Shown piece by piece: positions 12,288 through 24,285 of a DNA stretch of 41,755 nt. This DNA comes from a virus, in IMG/VR virus record IMGVR_UViG_3300025326_000091, positions 1 to 41,755 of that record, one strand, 5' to 3'. Under the pieces are notes generated by a model. The model made no database searches, had not been told where the DNA came from, and saw nothing but the letters and a program-made list of their open reading frames with translations. A program made the position numbers and the translations under genes. How positions within the stretch are numbered: position 1 is the stretch's first letter; each line of letters begins with the position of its first letter.

Positions 12288-12953
12288 TCAAGATTCGATG
12301 ATTGCATCGTGGGCCTCCATGACAAGTCGTTCCAACTCGGCATTTTGCGCGTCCCAGGCGGCGGCCCCGGCGGTGGCCCTGGCGGCGTCCCCGGCGGCCC
12401 CGGCGGCGTCCTCGGCGGCCCTGGCGGCGTCCCTGGCGGCCCAGGCGGCGTCCCCGGCGGCGGCCCCGGCGGCGTCCCTGGCGGCCCAGGCGGCGTCCCC
12501 GGCGGCGGCCCCGGCGGCGTCCCCGGCGGCCCAGGCGGCGTCCTCGGCGGCGGCCCCGGCGGCGTCTCGAAGCGATTCGTCGCCGGCTTCCAGGTAGCGG
12601 CGCACGATCTCAGGAGCCTTCCACATATGGAGCACCGACCGAGCGCACCAGCGCGCAAACCCGCACAGCAGGTCGTCGGTGTCGGTGAGCATCCACTCCA
12701 CCGTCCGCTCCCGACAGACCAGCTTGTCCGAGTCGCGCAGAATCTCACCGCCGCAGCGGACGCGGCAGATCACTGGGCCACTCGCGTATACCAAGGCGTC
12801 GATGATCCGCTCTGAGGCGTGCATCCCGGATTTGCAGAGCACGAGCGGCCCCTCGTGCCGCAGCGTCTCTCCTACACGAACCTCCCGGCCGTCGCCATTC
12901 CCGAGCCGCAAGTCTGCCGGGAGGAAGTGCCAAGCCAGGACTATTTCGCTCAT
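12288..12953 (-). CDS. DUF7666-like protein with Ala-rich repeat tail, 221 aa
   Basis: Residues ~25-90 match from memory the phage family DUF7666: LCKSGMHASERIIDALVYA, CRVRCGGEI, and DKLVCRERTVEW. From about residue 128 to 205 the protein is a low-complexity repeat of Ala, Trp, Asp and Arg, encoded by a 45-bp GC-rich repeat. A short charged C-terminus follows. Ala-rich tails are common in this family in phages. Function is unknown. The start has GGAGAG upstream. Confidence 0.7.
   Translation of the reverse strand: MSEIVLAWHFLPADLRLGNGDGREVRVGETLRHEGPLVLCKSGMHASERIIDALVYASGPVICRVRCGGEILRDSDKLVCRERTVEWMLTDTDDLLCGFARWCARSVLHMWKAPEIVRRYLEAGDESLRDAAGAAAEDAAWAAGDAAGAAAGDAAWAARDAAGAAAGDAAWAARDAARAAEDAAGAAGDAARATAGAAAWDAQNAELERLVMEAHDAIIES
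12378..12567. repeat. 45-bp tandem repeat inside the DUF7666-like gene
   Basis: Copies begin at 12423, 12468, 12513 and (partial) 12558, and a more diverged copy lies at about 12378. Each unit encodes 15 residues of the Ala-rich tail. The repeat is in frame with the minus-strand gene and likely changes copy number by slippage. Confidence 0.8.
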
Positions 12954-17521: not shown

Positions 17522-18187
17522 ATGGTCAAGGAACTGCCGATTGAATCTCTGATCGAAGATTTCGACCTCTACCCGCGGACGATGGTCTCCGGACCACACG
17601 TCGCGCGGCTGCGCGATGCACTCACAGCAAGAATCACTACACCGCCCGTCATCGTCGACGCGACATCGAAACGCATAGTCGATGGATTCCACCGAGTGCG
17701 CGCCTACAAGCAGCTCGGACGCGAGACGATTGAGTGCGAGATCCGCATGTACAAGAACGATGCCGAACTGTTCGCTGATGCGGTGCGACTCAACTCCGGC
17801 CACGGACGACCGCTTGGACCATACGAGATCAAGAAGTCCGTCGAGACGCTCCGCCGTCTTGGTGTCGGAGAGAAGCGGATCATCGAGATCGTGCGAGCAC
17901 CGAAAGAGCGCATCGTGGAGATCGTCTCGCGGTTCGCCACGAGCACCTCTGGGCACGAATCAGCCGTAAAGGCCGCATACGAGTCGGACCTTGCGGGACA
18001 AGAGATGACAGCGGATCAGGAGGTTGCGAACCGCAAGCTCACGGGCATGAATCCGACGTTCCACGCGCGTCAGATTCTCATCGCGCTTCGAGCGGACATG
18101 GCCAGGATGACTCCTGGATTCGTCGCGGCGATGGACGAGCTGTGCGAGTTGTGGGAGAAGGTTAGGCCGGAACAGAAGACTGCTTAG
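17522..18187 (+). CDS. ParB-N-domain protein, 221 aa
   Basis: Residues ~1-90 show the ParB/Srx-like nuclease-fold pattern: a basic start, PVIVDATSK, and IVDGFHRVRAYKQLG. The rest is helical. The related N-terminal domain in 22381-23748 is fused to a methyltransferase. Free-standing ParB-N proteins in phages are thought to bind DNA or cleave nucleotides; which applies here is unknown. AAGGAGG precedes the ATG. Confidence 0.72.
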   Translation: MVKELPIESLIEDFDLYPRTMVSGPHVARLRDALTARITTPPVIVDATSKRIVDGFHRVRAYKQLGRETIECEIRMYKNDAELFADAVRLNSGHGRPLGPYEIKKSVETLRRLGVGEKRIIEIVRAPKERIVEIVSRFATSTSGHESAVKAAYESDLAGQEMTADQEVANRKLTGMNPTFHARQILIALRADMARMTPGFVAAMDELCELWEKVRPEQKTA

Positions 18188-18724: not shown

Positions 18725-18871
18725 GTGGACCGCAACGACGAAACCCAAGCGACTGAGAATCCAGCCGAAACCTACCGCGAACGTATCCGCCGTGTCCTCC
18801 AAGCCGCAGCCGAGAAACCAGAAGCCATCGCAGAATGGGCTCGCTCTTGCGGATGGAGAAAGGAGAAATGA
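18725..18871 (+). CDS. Small hypothetical protein, 48 aa
   Basis: GTG start after GAGGTG; the stop overlaps the next ATG (ATGA). Short, acidic then helical, no motif. The overlap with the methyltransferase gene supports it as real. Confidence 0.5.
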   Translation: MDRNDETQATENPAETYRERIRRVLQAAAEKPEAIAEWARSCGWRKEK

Positions 18872-19761
18872 GCACGCTCGCCAAGAGGCCGAAGGGAGCA
18901 GTCCAGAAGTACAATCCCGAGAAGGGCCTCAAGACGATTGCGGTCGCAGAGACGGCCGAAAAGTACTACCGCAGAGCCAAAGATCCGGAGAAGCTCACGC
19001 AAGCGGTAGAGGTGAAACTGACGGCGCAACGCGAATTCGTCGCGTGGTGGGATCAGCAAGAGAAAGACAAGGGCGGGCGTCCAGAGAAAACCCGTTCCAG
19101 GTCCGGAACAGGTTTCCATGCGGACGCCTTCGGCCTCGACAGGAAGACGCTTCACCGCTGGCGGAAGAAGCTCGGCAACGAAAAGGTGTTCGAGAAGACG
19201 CTCGCACAAGCAATCCAACGCTGCATCCTCGTCTGTGAGGCGAAGAGCGCTACTGGTGCCGACGCTCACGTAGCCCAGAACGCCGGCGTCTCTGAATGGT
19301 ACACGCCGAGCGACATCATTGAACGAGCTCGCGATGTCCTTGGATCGATCGACGTCGACCCGGCATCTCACAAGGACGCCCAGAAGATAGTCAATGCCGC
19401 GACGTACTTCGATCTCAAGAGCGACGGACTACAACAAGAATGGAAGGGTACCGTCTGGTTGAATCCGCCCTACTCTCAACCACTCATTCAACAGTTCATC
19501 GAGAAACTCGTGCAAGAGTTCAAAGCACGGCGCACTACAGCGGCGATCAGTCTGACGAACAACGGCACAGAGACAGACTGGGGCCAACTTCTACTTTGTC
19601 ACTCTTCTGAAGTGTGCTTCCCTCGCGGCCGCGTGCGTTTCTGGAATACGACAGAGGAGTCCTTTCCTTTGCAGGGCCAGATGATCTGTTACTTCGGGGA
19701 TGGCAAGGAGTTCTTCGGTCGATTTGGGGAGCTCGGCGTGGTCATGGATGCGCACCAATGA
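18868..19761 (+). CDS. Phage N6-adenine DNA methyltransferase (Dam-type), 297 aa
   Basis: It is of the phage DNA N-6-adenine-methyltransferase type: EWYTPSDIIERARDV, DVDPAS and WLNPPYS (the catalytic NPPY, about residues 198-204) are characteristic. The N-terminal ~120 residues form a separate helical region with an HTH-like FGLDRKTLHRWRKKL. Recognition sequence is unknown. The gene overlaps both neighbours. Confidence 0.8.
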   Translation: MSTLAKRPKGAVQKYNPEKGLKTIAVAETAEKYYRRAKDPEKLTQAVEVKLTAQREFVAWWDQQEKDKGGRPEKTRSRSGTGFHADAFGLDRKTLHRWRKKLGNEKVFEKTLAQAIQRCILVCEAKSATGADAHVAQNAGVSEWYTPSDIIERARDVLGSIDVDPASHKDAQKIVNAATYFDLKSDGLQQEWKGTVWLNPPYSQPLIQQFIEKLVQEFKARRTTAAISLTNNGTETDWGQLLLCHSSEVCFPRGRVRFWNTTEESFPLQGQMICYFGDGKEFFGRFGELGVVMDAHQ

Positions 19762-20474: not shown

Positions 20475-21923
20475 GTGGACGAACTACCCCACGACGACGA
20501 AGCCGAACAGGCCGTCCTAGGCGCGCTACTCTTCGCGCCGTCTCCACAACCACCGCCAGCGTTCCTATCCCCATCCGACTTCTACCGCAAGCTCCACGGC
20601 CGCATCTACGCCGCCCTACAAACTCTCGCCGCTACCGGCCAACCCTACGACTTGATCCTCCTCCTGGGCCAACTAGAATCTGACGTGAAACTCCGCGTCG
20701 AAGACCGCCGCACGATCGGCCGAATCCTTGGCATCGGCGCCGTCTCCAAGAACCTCGAAGCCTACGCCAGAGTAGTCCGCCAACAATCCATCAAGCGTCT
20801 CGTCATCACCGCCGCATCGGATCTCATGGCCCAAGCCTCCAACGGCGGCAACCTCGACCAGGTGCGCGACTGCCTCCGAGCCTCAAGCCTCACCCTCGAG
20901 GCCGTGATGGCCAGCGACAACCAGCAACCCCTCCGCGTGATCGACCTGGGTGACCTAGACACCGAGGAGCCGATACCCTGGGTAGTCCAGGGCTGGGTCG
21001 GATCACCCGACATTGTCGTCTGTGGCGCAGAAGGCGGTATGGGAAAGTCCATCCTCGGAATGGAGCTTGCCCTCGCCCTCGCCACGAACACCAAGTTCGC
21101 CGACGTCCTGGAAACCTACGGCGGGCCCTACCGCGTCCTCATGATCGACGAAGAGATGGCACCACGCCTCTCCCGCTTCCGACTCCGCCAACTCATCCGT
21201 GGCCGCGAAATCCAAAACCCACAAGACCTCCCACTCCGCTACCTATCCCAAAACTCCCTCCGCCTCGACGACCCACGAACACGCCGCAGCCTCGAGAGCG
21301 AGATAGAGACCTTCAAGCCGCACTGGGTGATCCTCGATACCCTCATCCGATTCCACGCGTTCGAGGAAAACTCCAACACCGAAATGTCACGTATCTTCAA
21401 CGACCACCTACGACCACTCCGCGCAACCCACGGCTGCGGCTTCTTCGTCCACCACCACCTCGCAAAACCCACCAAGGAACGCACGGAAGCCTTCCACCGC
21501 CTCCGCGGCGCCGGCGAACTCGGCAACATGTTCGACGACGTGTGGTCGCTCCAAGGCGACCGCCATACCCCAGACCGCACGCTCGGCGCCGAGAAGTGCC
21601 GCTGGATAGGCGGCGCCGTCCCCCCGCCCATCTCCCTCCACTACGAAGAGGCCGAAGACCGATCCTGGGCCCGACTAACTGGTAAGACCGGGACCGCGTC
21701 GGCCGAAGAGATCATCCGAGCAGTGATTGCCGAGGCCGGCGACCTCGGTGCCTCCCGCCAGACCGTCCTCGCCGCCTGTGAACTCCAACACATCCCACTC
21801 CCGACCGCCATCAAGACCCTCAAACGGATGGAAACCACTCTCCGAAAAGAGGGGGCCAAGGGTGGCAACTCCAGGGGCTCAATTAGGTACTTTTCGCTCG
21901 ACCAAAAAGGAGCACTCTTATAA
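20475..21923 (+). CDS. Replicative helicase-like ATPase (DnaB N-domain plus RepA-like AAA), 482 aa
   Basis: Residues ~1-110 look like the DnaB N-terminal domain (DDEAEQAVLGALLF). Residues ~180-390 are a RecA-fold ATPase of the RepA/AAA_25 type: Walker A GAEGGMGKS (about 182-190), a Walker-B-like VLMIDEE, and a hydrophobic-D VILDTLIRF. A wHTH-like C-terminus ends the protein. It is probably the replicative helicase of the phage. A GTG start follows the previous gene by nine bases. Confidence 0.75.
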   Translation: MDELPHDDEAEQAVLGALLFAPSPQPPPAFLSPSDFYRKLHGRIYAALQTLAATGQPYDLILLLGQLESDVKLRVEDRRTIGRILGIGAVSKNLEAYARVVRQQSIKRLVITAASDLMAQASNGGNLDQVRDCLRASSLTLEAVMASDNQQPLRVIDLGDLDTEEPIPWVVQGWVGSPDIVVCGAEGGMGKSILGMELALALATNTKFADVLETYGGPYRVLMIDEEMAPRLSRFRLRQLIRGREIQNPQDLPLRYLSQNSLRLDDPRTRRSLESEIETFKPHWVILDTLIRFHAFEENSNTEMSRIFNDHLRPLRATHGCGFFVHHHLAKPTKERTEAFHRLRGAGELGNMFDDVWSLQGDRHTPDRTLGAEKCRWIGGAVPPPISLHYEEAEDRSWARLTGKTGTASAEEIIRAVIAEAGDLGASRQTVLAACELQHIPLPTAIKTLKRMETTLRKEGAKGGNSRGSIRYFSLDQKGALL

Positions 21924-22380
21924 TTCTCCAAAAGACCACCGAAGGACCAATCAGTGACCACTTTTCGAAAACAGCCCCGAAAAAGGCGAAAGTCCGAGAA
22001 GTGGCCAAACAACGCGCTAATTTTCAATCAGTGACCACCGAAGGACCAATCAGTGACCACCGGAAACCCACGCCGTTGCCGAAAGACCACGGCGAAAGTC
22101 CAATGTTTTCCCCCCCCCTTATACCCCCCCCGGGGGAAGGGAATCGGCCCCCAGGTGGGCCGGCCGAAGAACCACCGAAGGACCACCGTGTGACCCTCCG
22201 GCCGCGCAAACGCGGCCTCTTGGCCGCGCGCGTCCGGACCCGGGTCCCTTCCCCGGCAGGATGGGCCCCCCGACCCCCCGTCCGTAGCACCCCCACGGCT
22301 TGGTCGCCAGGACGCCACACAAGCGAACGTCGGCGGCCACGGCGGTACTCTATGAGGCGGCCTGAAGAGGAGGAGAACGG
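21924..22380. other. Non-coding segment, candidate replication origin
   Basis: A 457-base gap between the helicase and the methyltransferase. It holds TATAAT at 21919-21924 at its edge, direct repeats (iterons), a C9-TTATA-C8-G5 tract (22110-22136), and a perfect GGCCGCG-caaa-CGCGGCC hairpin (22200-22217). Open frames crossing it are Pro-rich and repeat-driven and I do not believe them. Confidence 0.5.
21934..22068. repeat. Iteron-like direct repeats, 22-bp period
   Basis: A unit beginning CAATCAGTGACCACC occurs at 22025 and 22047, 22 bases apart, with a partial copy at 21948 (and its preceding GACCACCGAAGGAC at 21934). A 28-base segment is identical at 21934-21961 and 22033-22060. Related fragments lie at 22085-22104 and 22171-22183. 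The period is about two helical turns, as in initiator-binding iterons. Confidence 0.65.
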
Positions 22381-23748
22381 ATGGGCGGGATGAACTATAT
22401 CGATCGGATCGTTGGCCGTGGGAGCGTAGATCCTTCGACGCTGGCGGCGAATCCGCGCAACTGGCGCCGGCACCCGAAGAGCCAGGGGATTGCGCTGGAC
22501 GGGCTCCTGGAACGTGTCGGATGGGTTCGCGAGGTTTTAGTGAACCAGCGGACGGGACGGATGATCGATGGTCACCTCCGTTTGGAGCTCGCGGTGGGGC
22601 GGGGGGAGGCGTCTGTTCCGGTGACGTACGTTGATCTCTCGCCGGAGGAGGAGTTGCTGGTGCTGGCGACGTTGGATCCCGTTGCGGCGTTGGCCGATGA
22701 CGATTCCGAGCGGCTGGATGCGATTCTGAAGGACGTTGGAGTCACCGGTAACGCTGGAGTGGACAAGCTCCTCCGGTCGCTCGTGTCGGATGGCAAGAAC
22801 GACGGCCTGACCGATCCCGATGCGATCCCGGAGCCTCCCGACGAGCCTGCCACTCAGCCGGGCGACCTCATCGTCCTGGGCCGGCATCGGTTGCTCTGCG
22901 GAGACAGCGCCAATCCGATGTCTGTTGAGATGCTCCTCGGTGACGAGCGGATCCAGCTCGTGAACACCGATCCGCCGTACAACGTCCGAGTCGAGCCGAG
23001 GTCGAACAATGCGATCGCCGCCAATCTCGCGGCGGGTGGGCGCGGCTCCAAGAAGGGCAACGTCCCCCGCGAGCAGCTCGACCGGATGCACCACCAGGGG
23101 CTCGACCTCGCTCGGCATCCCGGGAAGAGCAAGCCTACGGGGAAGATGCGGGCCCGTGACCGTGTGTTGGAGAACGACTTTGTCTCCGACGAGGCGTTCG
23201 CCGCGATGCTCAAGTCGTGGTTGGGGAACCTCGCAGCGATGCTCGAGCCTGGGCGATCGTTCTACATCTGGGGTGGGTACTCGAACATCAAGAACTACCC
23301 GGGGGCGCTGGAGAACGCAGGCCTGTACTTCTCCCTGGCGGTGATCTGGGTGAAGGAATGGCCCGTGCTCACCAGCAAGGACTTCATGGGGAACCACGAG
23401 TGGTGCTTCTACGGCTGGCGGGAAGGAGCGGCCCACTACTTCAATCCCGACATCACAAACGCTACGGACGTCTGGTCGGTGAAGAAGGTGTCTCCTCCGT
23501 CGATGATCCACCTCACGGAGAAGCCTGTGGAGCTCGCCGAGCGGGCAATGCAGTACTCGTCCCGCCGCGGCGAACACGTCCTAGACCTCTTCGGCGGTAG
23601 CGGCTCCACCCTGATCGCCGCCGAGCGCATGGGCCGGCGAGCGTTCCTGATGGAGATCGATCCAGCCTACTGCGATGTGATCGTCCAGCGCTGGCAAGAC
23701 TTCACGGGCGAGAAGGCTCAGGGCTGGCGGGGGAACGAGCCATCTTGA
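22381..23748 (+). CDS. ParB-N domain / DNA methyltransferase fusion, 455 aa
   Basis: Residues ~1-90 form a ParB-N-like domain (NPRNWRRHP, GRMIDGHLRLELA). Residues ~160-440 are an N4-cytosine/N6-adenine methyltransferase: catalytic DPPYNV (about 198-203) comes before the SAM-binding DLFGGSGSTLIAAE (about 401-414), the beta-class order. GGAGG precedes the ATG. Recognition sequence is unknown. It could protect phage DNA from host restriction or mark it for packaging. Confidence 0.82.
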   Translation: MGGMNYIDRIVGRGSVDPSTLAANPRNWRRHPKSQGIALDGLLERVGWVREVLVNQRTGRMIDGHLRLELAVGRGEASVPVTYVDLSPEEELLVLATLDPVAALADDDSERLDAILKDVGVTGNAGVDKLLRSLVSDGKNDGLTDPDAIPEPPDEPATQPGDLIVLGRHRLLCGDSANPMSVEMLLGDERIQLVNTDPPYNVRVEPRSNNAIAANLAAGGRGSKKGNVPREQLDRMHHQGLDLARHPGKSKPTGKMRARDRVLENDFVSDEAFAAMLKSWLGNLAAMLEPGRSFYIWGGYSNIKNYPGALENAGLYFSLAVIWVKEWPVLTSKDFMGNHEWCFYGWREGAAHYFNPDITNATDVWSVKKVSPPSMIHLTEKPVELAERAMQYSSRRGEHVLDLFGGSGSTLIAAERMGRRAFLMEIDPAYCDVIVQRWQDFTGEKAQGWRGNEPS

Positions 23749-23829: not shown

Positions 23830-24285
23830 ATGGATGGAGCCTCGCGAGTGCCGACGATAGCCACGCCGCGCAAGGTTTACTACCAACAGAGACGCTTGGA
23901 TGCGATGAAGCTCCGTCTCGGTGGGGCTACCTACCGCGAGATTGCAGAGAAGCTGAACATTCGTTTGCAGTCCGCACACGAGTTTGTGCGCCGGACCCTC
24001 GAGGAGAACAACAAGAAGCTACGGGAGGATGTCGAGCAGCTACGCGCGATTGAGCTTGCTCGTCTAGATTCTATGACTGTTGCGCTTTGGCCCGGGCGGT
24101 CTTCCCCAAGGGTGGCAGACACACTGATCCGAATCGGAGAACGGCGGGCGAGACTTCTCGGCCTCGATGCACCAAGTGAGATCCCGATCACGATGCCAGT
24201 GCAGATCACGTCGTTTCGGTTGCGGTTTGCAGACGGCCGCGAGGTTGCACCGGAACCTACGACATCAGAGCTTCAATCATCATGA
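23830..24285 (+). CDS. terS: Terminase small subunit, 151 aa
   Basis: It lies directly upstream of the large subunit and overlaps it (ATGA). Residues ~20-50 contain a helix-turn-helix (ATYREIAEKLNIRLQSAHEF) typical of small terminases, followed by a coiled-coil-like helix and a C-terminal beta segment. It should recognise the packaging site on the phage DNA. Identification rests on context plus the HTH. Confidence 0.7.
   Translation: MDGASRVPTIATPRKVYYQQRRLDAMKLRLGGATYREIAEKLNIRLQSAHEFVRRTLEENNKKLREDVEQLRAIELARLDSMTVALWPGRSSPRVADTLIRIGERRARLLGLDAPSEIPITMPVQITSFRLRFADGREVAPEPTTSELQSS

Follow-up and report, generated by a model that had tools for sequence, protein, structure and literature searches.

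The stretch 21924-22190 of an uncultivated virus contig is probably a replication origin, at which iterons with the core GACCA would be bound by the C-terminal domain of the helicase encoded immediately upstream; we put the probability of this reading at about two in three. The contig, IMG/VR record IMGVR_UViG_3300025326_000091, comprises 41,755 bases and carries terminase, portal, capsid and ERF recombinase genes together with replication genes. We refer to this whole stretch as the window. The repeats themselves are observed directly, and from their setting we infer binding of the boxes by the window helicase, unwinding at an adjacent AT-rich stretch and initiation at this site.

A conserved, non-coding repeat array behind the helicase gene

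A gap of 457 bp (21924-22380) lies between the helicase gene (20475-21923) and a downstream gene for a ParB-domain DNA methyltransferase (22381-23748). GACCA boxes, all on the plus strand, form two triplets in this gap (starting at 21934, 21945 and 21956, and at 22033, 22044 and 22055), which are followed by boxes at 22085 and 22181. Inside each triplet the boxes advance by 11 bp and read GACCA(C/A). The features of the region are as follows.

20475-21923, plus strand: replicative helicase with DnaB_N (residues 4-103), a RepA/AAA_25 RecA-fold motor (residues 157-332) and a C-terminal extension of about 80 residues, from Pfam and PHROGs matches
21696-21884, plus strand: putative C-terminal DNA-binding (winged-helix-like) domain, residues 408-470 of the helicase, suggested by weak models and by family covariation
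21879-21938, no strand: AT-rich stretch, candidate DNA unwinding element, 62% A+T against a mean of 37%, conserved in the relative L002
21934-21961, plus strand: iteron triplet A, GACCAC-N5-GACCAA-N5-GACCAC, conserved in L002
22025-22060, plus strand: iteron triplet B, an exact copy of A (22033-22060), preceded by a further half copy, CAATCAGT, at 22025; the triplet is conserved in L002
22085-22090, plus strand: lone outlying GACCAC box, its GACCA retained in L002
22170-22186, plus strand: outlying AACCAC/GACCAC pair, 11 bp apart, less conserved
22197-22238, no strand: GC-rich stem-loop (z -2.7), conserved in the relative (z -3.1)

The earlier note had reported an exactly duplicated block of 28 bases, and this block, GACCACCGAAGGACCAATCAGTGACCAC, is indeed present at 21934 and 22033, with the copies 99 bp, or nine 11-bp steps, apart. 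No exact repeat in the gap is longer, and 1000 dinucleotide shuffles of the gap yielded at most 15 nt. The shorter sequence CAATCAGTGACCAC occurs three times in the 41.8 kb of the window, each time inside the gap (21948, 22025 and 22047). A 15-mer ending in ACC is present at 22025 and 22047, which accounts for the 22-bp repeat spacing of the earlier note; the repeating unit, however, is 11 bp, and 22 bp corresponds to every second box.

For a systematic measure we counted same-strand copies of a 5-mer spaced 9-12 bp apart and took the best 5-mer. None of the 449 other 450-bp segments of the record reaches the phased GACCA score of the gap region. A 6-mer version of the statistic misses this array because the boxes alternate between GACCAC and GACCAA; the 5-mer version was settled before the second blind set of helicases described below.

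We found a single close relative (L002/L094), whose helicase is 82% identical; the search of genome contigs gave distant relatives only. The relative retains both triplets, the 99-bp distance between them and the AT-rich sequence ahead of the first box, and its DNA between the triplets has diverged from that of the window. Comparison with the relative shows no convincing protein conservation in any of the six reading frames of the gap, and single-base insertions and deletions separate the two sequences downstream of the array. The long gene-free gap behind the helicase gene is therefore upheld, and the repeats do not belong to a translated, conserved protein, an outcome that the earlier note had named as speaking against an origin. 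The repeats are genuine and conserved, and they lie in non-coding DNA.

The most AT-rich 60 bp nearby begin at 21879 and extend into triplet A. Across the gap the GC skew switches sign, from about -0.2 in the helicase gene to positive values past 22.3 kb, and it does likewise in the relative; the profile, which the earlier note had proposed to inspect, is not flat, with gene composition as a confounder. Hairpin stability in the triplet region is not unusual (z -0.14). No TTWTNCACA-like DnaA box lies near the gap, with one mismatch allowed, and no Rfam family was matched in the region. Between the array and the stem-loop (22112-22135) runs a long C tract (CCCCCCCCC TTATA CCCCCCCC) followed by GGGGG, which L002 has in a shortened form.

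The helicase and the arrays at helicase gene ends

The helicase matches AAA_25 with 2.4e-23 in Pfam, its family profile matches RSF1010 RepA (1g8y) with an E-value of 1.4e-16, and Foldseek with a low-confidence model returned DnaB and RepA. Judged by these matches, it has a RecA-fold hexameric motor of the RepA group, and its combination of AAA_25/RepA with DnaB_N sets it apart from enzymes with an AAA+ or SF3-type core. The C-terminus is less clearly placed. In the full-length model, whose confidence is low overall and moderate in the C-terminal domain, it folds as helix-strand-helix-helix, and a model of the domain alone, of moderate confidence, contains three helices. It matches no Pfam family, its model has no significant fold match in the PDB, and profile comparisons with other helicase C-termini and with DnaD-like initiators were not significant, one result being marginal. 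In line with the earlier note, to which no separate initiator gene was obvious, our scan of proteins from the replication region, which include the products of some small genes of no known family, revealed no recognisable separate initiator.

We gathered RepA-like phage helicases by protein search alone, blind to repeats, and scored an array as present when the phased 5-mer count was at least 3. In the first set, 9 of 13 helicase 3' ends bear an array, against 0 of 121 other ORF ends at the same loci (Fisher 2.5e-11). A second set came from a new protein search, with measure and region unchanged, and gave 17 of 37 helicase 3' ends against 1 of 223 other gene ends (p 1.4e-15). The signal peaks at the stop codon, where 25 of 49 loci score in the interval from -120 to +330, and falls to zero in every interval ending at least 270 bp upstream of it.

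Among named phages, Roseobacter phage CRP-823 and Alteromonas phage PB15 share the helicase-array layout. About half of the blind RepA-like helicases lack an array by the phased 5-mer measure. The named phages TA17A, Wooper, SETP3, BcepGomr, Vibrio 1244, Javan84, Catfish and ArV2 lack one too; the Catfish and ArV2 helicases are of the DnaB_N type and 40 residues shorter than that of the window. Sodalis phage SO-1 has a depositor-annotated repeat region directly after its helicase-primase gene, with a phased score of only 2. This region (NC_013600.1, 40178-40657; L409) bears the annotation 'sequence similarity with region A'; the genome reportedly contains another region of this kind, and the GCGGGACA repeats of the annotated one are compatible with the helicase-array layout. 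In the literature searched, which lay mostly outside subscription journals, we found no description of RepA-like phage helicases with this arrangement.

GACCA does not mark RepA-like helicases universally: phased GACCA is present at 0 of 14 blind loci. The phased arrays at blind helicase 3' ends have cores of their own: GGTCC, CCTAG, GTGTA, TGTCG, CGTGC, GGGTA, GTCCG, AACCT and TCCCG.

Covariation between box motif and C-terminus is what binding of the boxes by the helicase C-terminus predicts. Across 33 array-bearing phages, motif similarity tracks the similarity of the last 85 helicase residues (Spearman 0.19, Mantel p 0.001) and does not track that of the motor domain (p 0.27). When only sites past the stop codon were used and near-duplicates were dropped, the correlation with the C-terminus was 0.226, a value reached by 0 of 2000 permutations, against 0.047 for the motor (p 0.28); a partial test of motif against C-terminal similarity gave p<=0.002. 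The covariation thus appears specific to the C-terminus but modest. Together with the conservation in the relative and the blind, replicated association with helicase 3' ends, it supports the proposal of an iteron-type origin, possibly bound by the RepA-like helicase, from which this analysis started.

Most likely, then, the helicase's own C-terminus binds the boxes and loads the motor at the AT-rich stretch. In the mechanism that we propose on these sequence grounds, the C-terminal domain of the DnaB_N/RepA-like helicase would bind the two 11-bp-phased triplets on one face of the helix, and binding would gather helicase subunits beside the AT-rich stretch (21879-21938). The strands would open there and the hexamer would be loaded onto them, so that one protein would act both as initiator and as replicative helicase.

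Known initiators and competing readings

The AAA+ helicases SaPI Rep and SCCmec Cch2 come from satellites or cassettes, and P4 alpha belongs to helicase superfamily 3. SaPI Rep and Cch2 are each helicase and origin binder at once: their C-terminal domain recognises short direct repeats that occupy the intergenic region just after the protein's own helicase gene, and for Cch2 binding to 5-nt boxes was shown in vitro (PMC7581432). P4 alpha is a multifunctional helicase whose winged-helix domain binds origin repeats, after which the protein unwinds and primes (PMC4234260). As with SaPI Rep and Cch2, an array of short repeats in non-coding DNA comes directly after the helicase gene of the window; unlike theirs, the window helicase's motor is RecA-fold and RepA/DnaB-like with a DnaB_N domain, the protein belongs to a tailed phage, and its binding to the repeats is predicted from sequence. 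P4 alpha carries a primase, whereas the window helicase gave no match to a primase domain. The plan of the mechanism is therefore already known from P4 alpha, SaPI Rep and SCCmec Cch2; the difference lies in the RecA-fold RepA/DnaB-like motor.

Other systems resemble the window in part. The motor domain of RSF1010 RepA is homologous to that of the window helicase; the RSF1010 iterons are served by a separate initiator, RepC, whereas here the extra C-terminus of the helicase is the proposed iteron binder. In SPP1 (gp38), a replication gene carries direct repeats together with an AT-rich unwinding element (PMC6316719). Direct repeats at a replication gene link the window to SPP1 gp38, lambda O and DnaD-like proteins alike, but these proteins are specialised initiators that work with a distinct helicase or loader, and their repeats lie inside the initiator gene, whereas those of the window follow the helicase gene. 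With classical plasmid iteron origins, the analogy drawn in the earlier note on the basis of units of about 22 bp, the window shares an AT-rich region beside the iterons; it differs in its 11-bp unit (against about 17-22 bp), in lacking a recognised dedicated initiator gene and in lacking DnaA boxes. The iteron-type origin survives from that analogy, and the initiator-helicase origins of P4, SaPI and SCCmec provide a better one.

The strongest competitor keeps the origin and its GACCA iterons but assigns the boxes to another, unrecognised phage or host protein, with the helicase recruited later. We consider it unlikely, though worth weighing: the C-terminal fold of the window helicase is not firmly assigned as DNA-binding, GACCA boxes elsewhere belong to dedicated DnaD/O-like initiators, and several genes of the replication region match no known family. 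Against it, none of the proteins scanned resembles an initiator, the box motif covaries within the helicase family with the C-terminal residues but not with the motor domain, and the arrays are placed where the helicase gene ends.

The remaining readings dispense with the origin. What the layout accompanies from phage to phage is the helicase gene, rather than a terminase gene, a par gene or a common downstream gene, and this makes all three readings less likely. Repressors can bind direct repeats, a conserved stem-loop follows the array and the next operon begins at 22381, all of which would suit a regulatory operator or terminator region of the downstream methyltransferase/terminase operon. 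Our search for sigma-70-like promoters found none in the region, however, and arrays accompany RepA-like helicase genes across phages whose downstream genes differ, which makes this reading improbable. We consider a packaging (cos/pac) site for terminase more improbable still: terminase genes do start about 1.8 kb downstream (23830 and 24282), but in CRP-823, PB15 and SO-1, which have the helicase-array layout, the annotation places no terminase gene closer to the array than about 2.5 kb. Plasmid R1 parC has 11-bp direct repeats, and a partition centromere for a ParB/ParR-like protein would fit the 11-bp repeats here, the ParB-domain methyltransferase directly downstream and the ParB-like gene at 17522. 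Yet the proteins scanned include no ParA or ParM motor, the ParB domain is joined to a methyltransferase in one protein, and in CRP-823 and PB15 the layout occurs away from any annotated par gene; among the readings considered we give this one the least credence.

If the helicase-bound origin that we favor is correct, the initiator-helicase plan of P4, SaPI and SCCmec would extend to RecA-fold, RepA/DnaB-like motors. We see an even chance of a broader rule, namely that the RepA-like helicases with a RecA fold in tailed phages are, as a broad class, self-sufficient initiator-helicases in which a fast-diverging C-terminal DNA-binding domain and a phage-specific phased array at the end of its gene co-evolve as a readable recognition code, making the location and specificity of the origin predictable from sequence in many uncultured phages. 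The origins of most phages are unknown, and self-recognition of iterons at the helicase's own gene end would make them predictable in many genomes. The covariation of motif and domain also provides ready material for testing how new specificities evolve in a small DNA-binding domain.

GACCA arrays elsewhere and other features of the window

In a scan of viral contigs, three GACCAM boxes spaced 11 bp apart were found in at least 120 places. Among the matches listed, 57 of 99 distinct arrays sit within a same-strand ORF, and 33 of the 48 non-redundant array-bearing ORFs match a DnaD-like helicase-loader PHROG, with many matching 'replication initiation' PHROGs. ORFs with 11-bp GACCA arrays are thus mostly phage replication initiators. 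Since an 11-bp step shifts the reading frame with each repeat, selection acts on the DNA. In L215 (1364-2164), L189 (436-1542), L127 (4101-4733) and others, the arrays fall where DnaD/O-like initiator genes code for a linker, and they specify TN(E/K)RPTxDQQ-type linkers, with the frame rotating.

We found no literature on GACCA or 11-bp phage iterons; the in-gene motif, of which we likewise found no description, is widespread among the listed phage initiator genes. GACCA is absent from the experimentally studied TP901-1 rep gene. In intergenic context, the arrays of L338 (L372), L293 (L377) and L195 lie at or just past the end of a gene that encodes an AAA_25 helicase extended at its C-terminus, and these are independent phages sharing the layout of the window. 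Phage contigs also frequently contain GACCA arrays spaced at 10 bp, which often lie between genes (for example L302, L264 and L317) and have mixed neighbours.

Within the window, the replication genes are surrounded by genes for a ParB-like protein (17522-18187), a Dam-like adenine methyltransferase (18835-19761) and the downstream methyltransferase (22381-23748), whose ParB domain accompanies an N6/N4 methyltransferase. The gene at 23830-24285 immediately precedes that for the large terminase; it matches the PHROG 'RNase E' but, judged by its position, more likely encodes a small terminase subunit. Farther upstream, a strong GC-rich tandem repeat (12349-12566, periods 12/21/45) lies in a minus-strand ORF (12288-12953) and encodes an Ala-rich repeat of the AAGDAA type.
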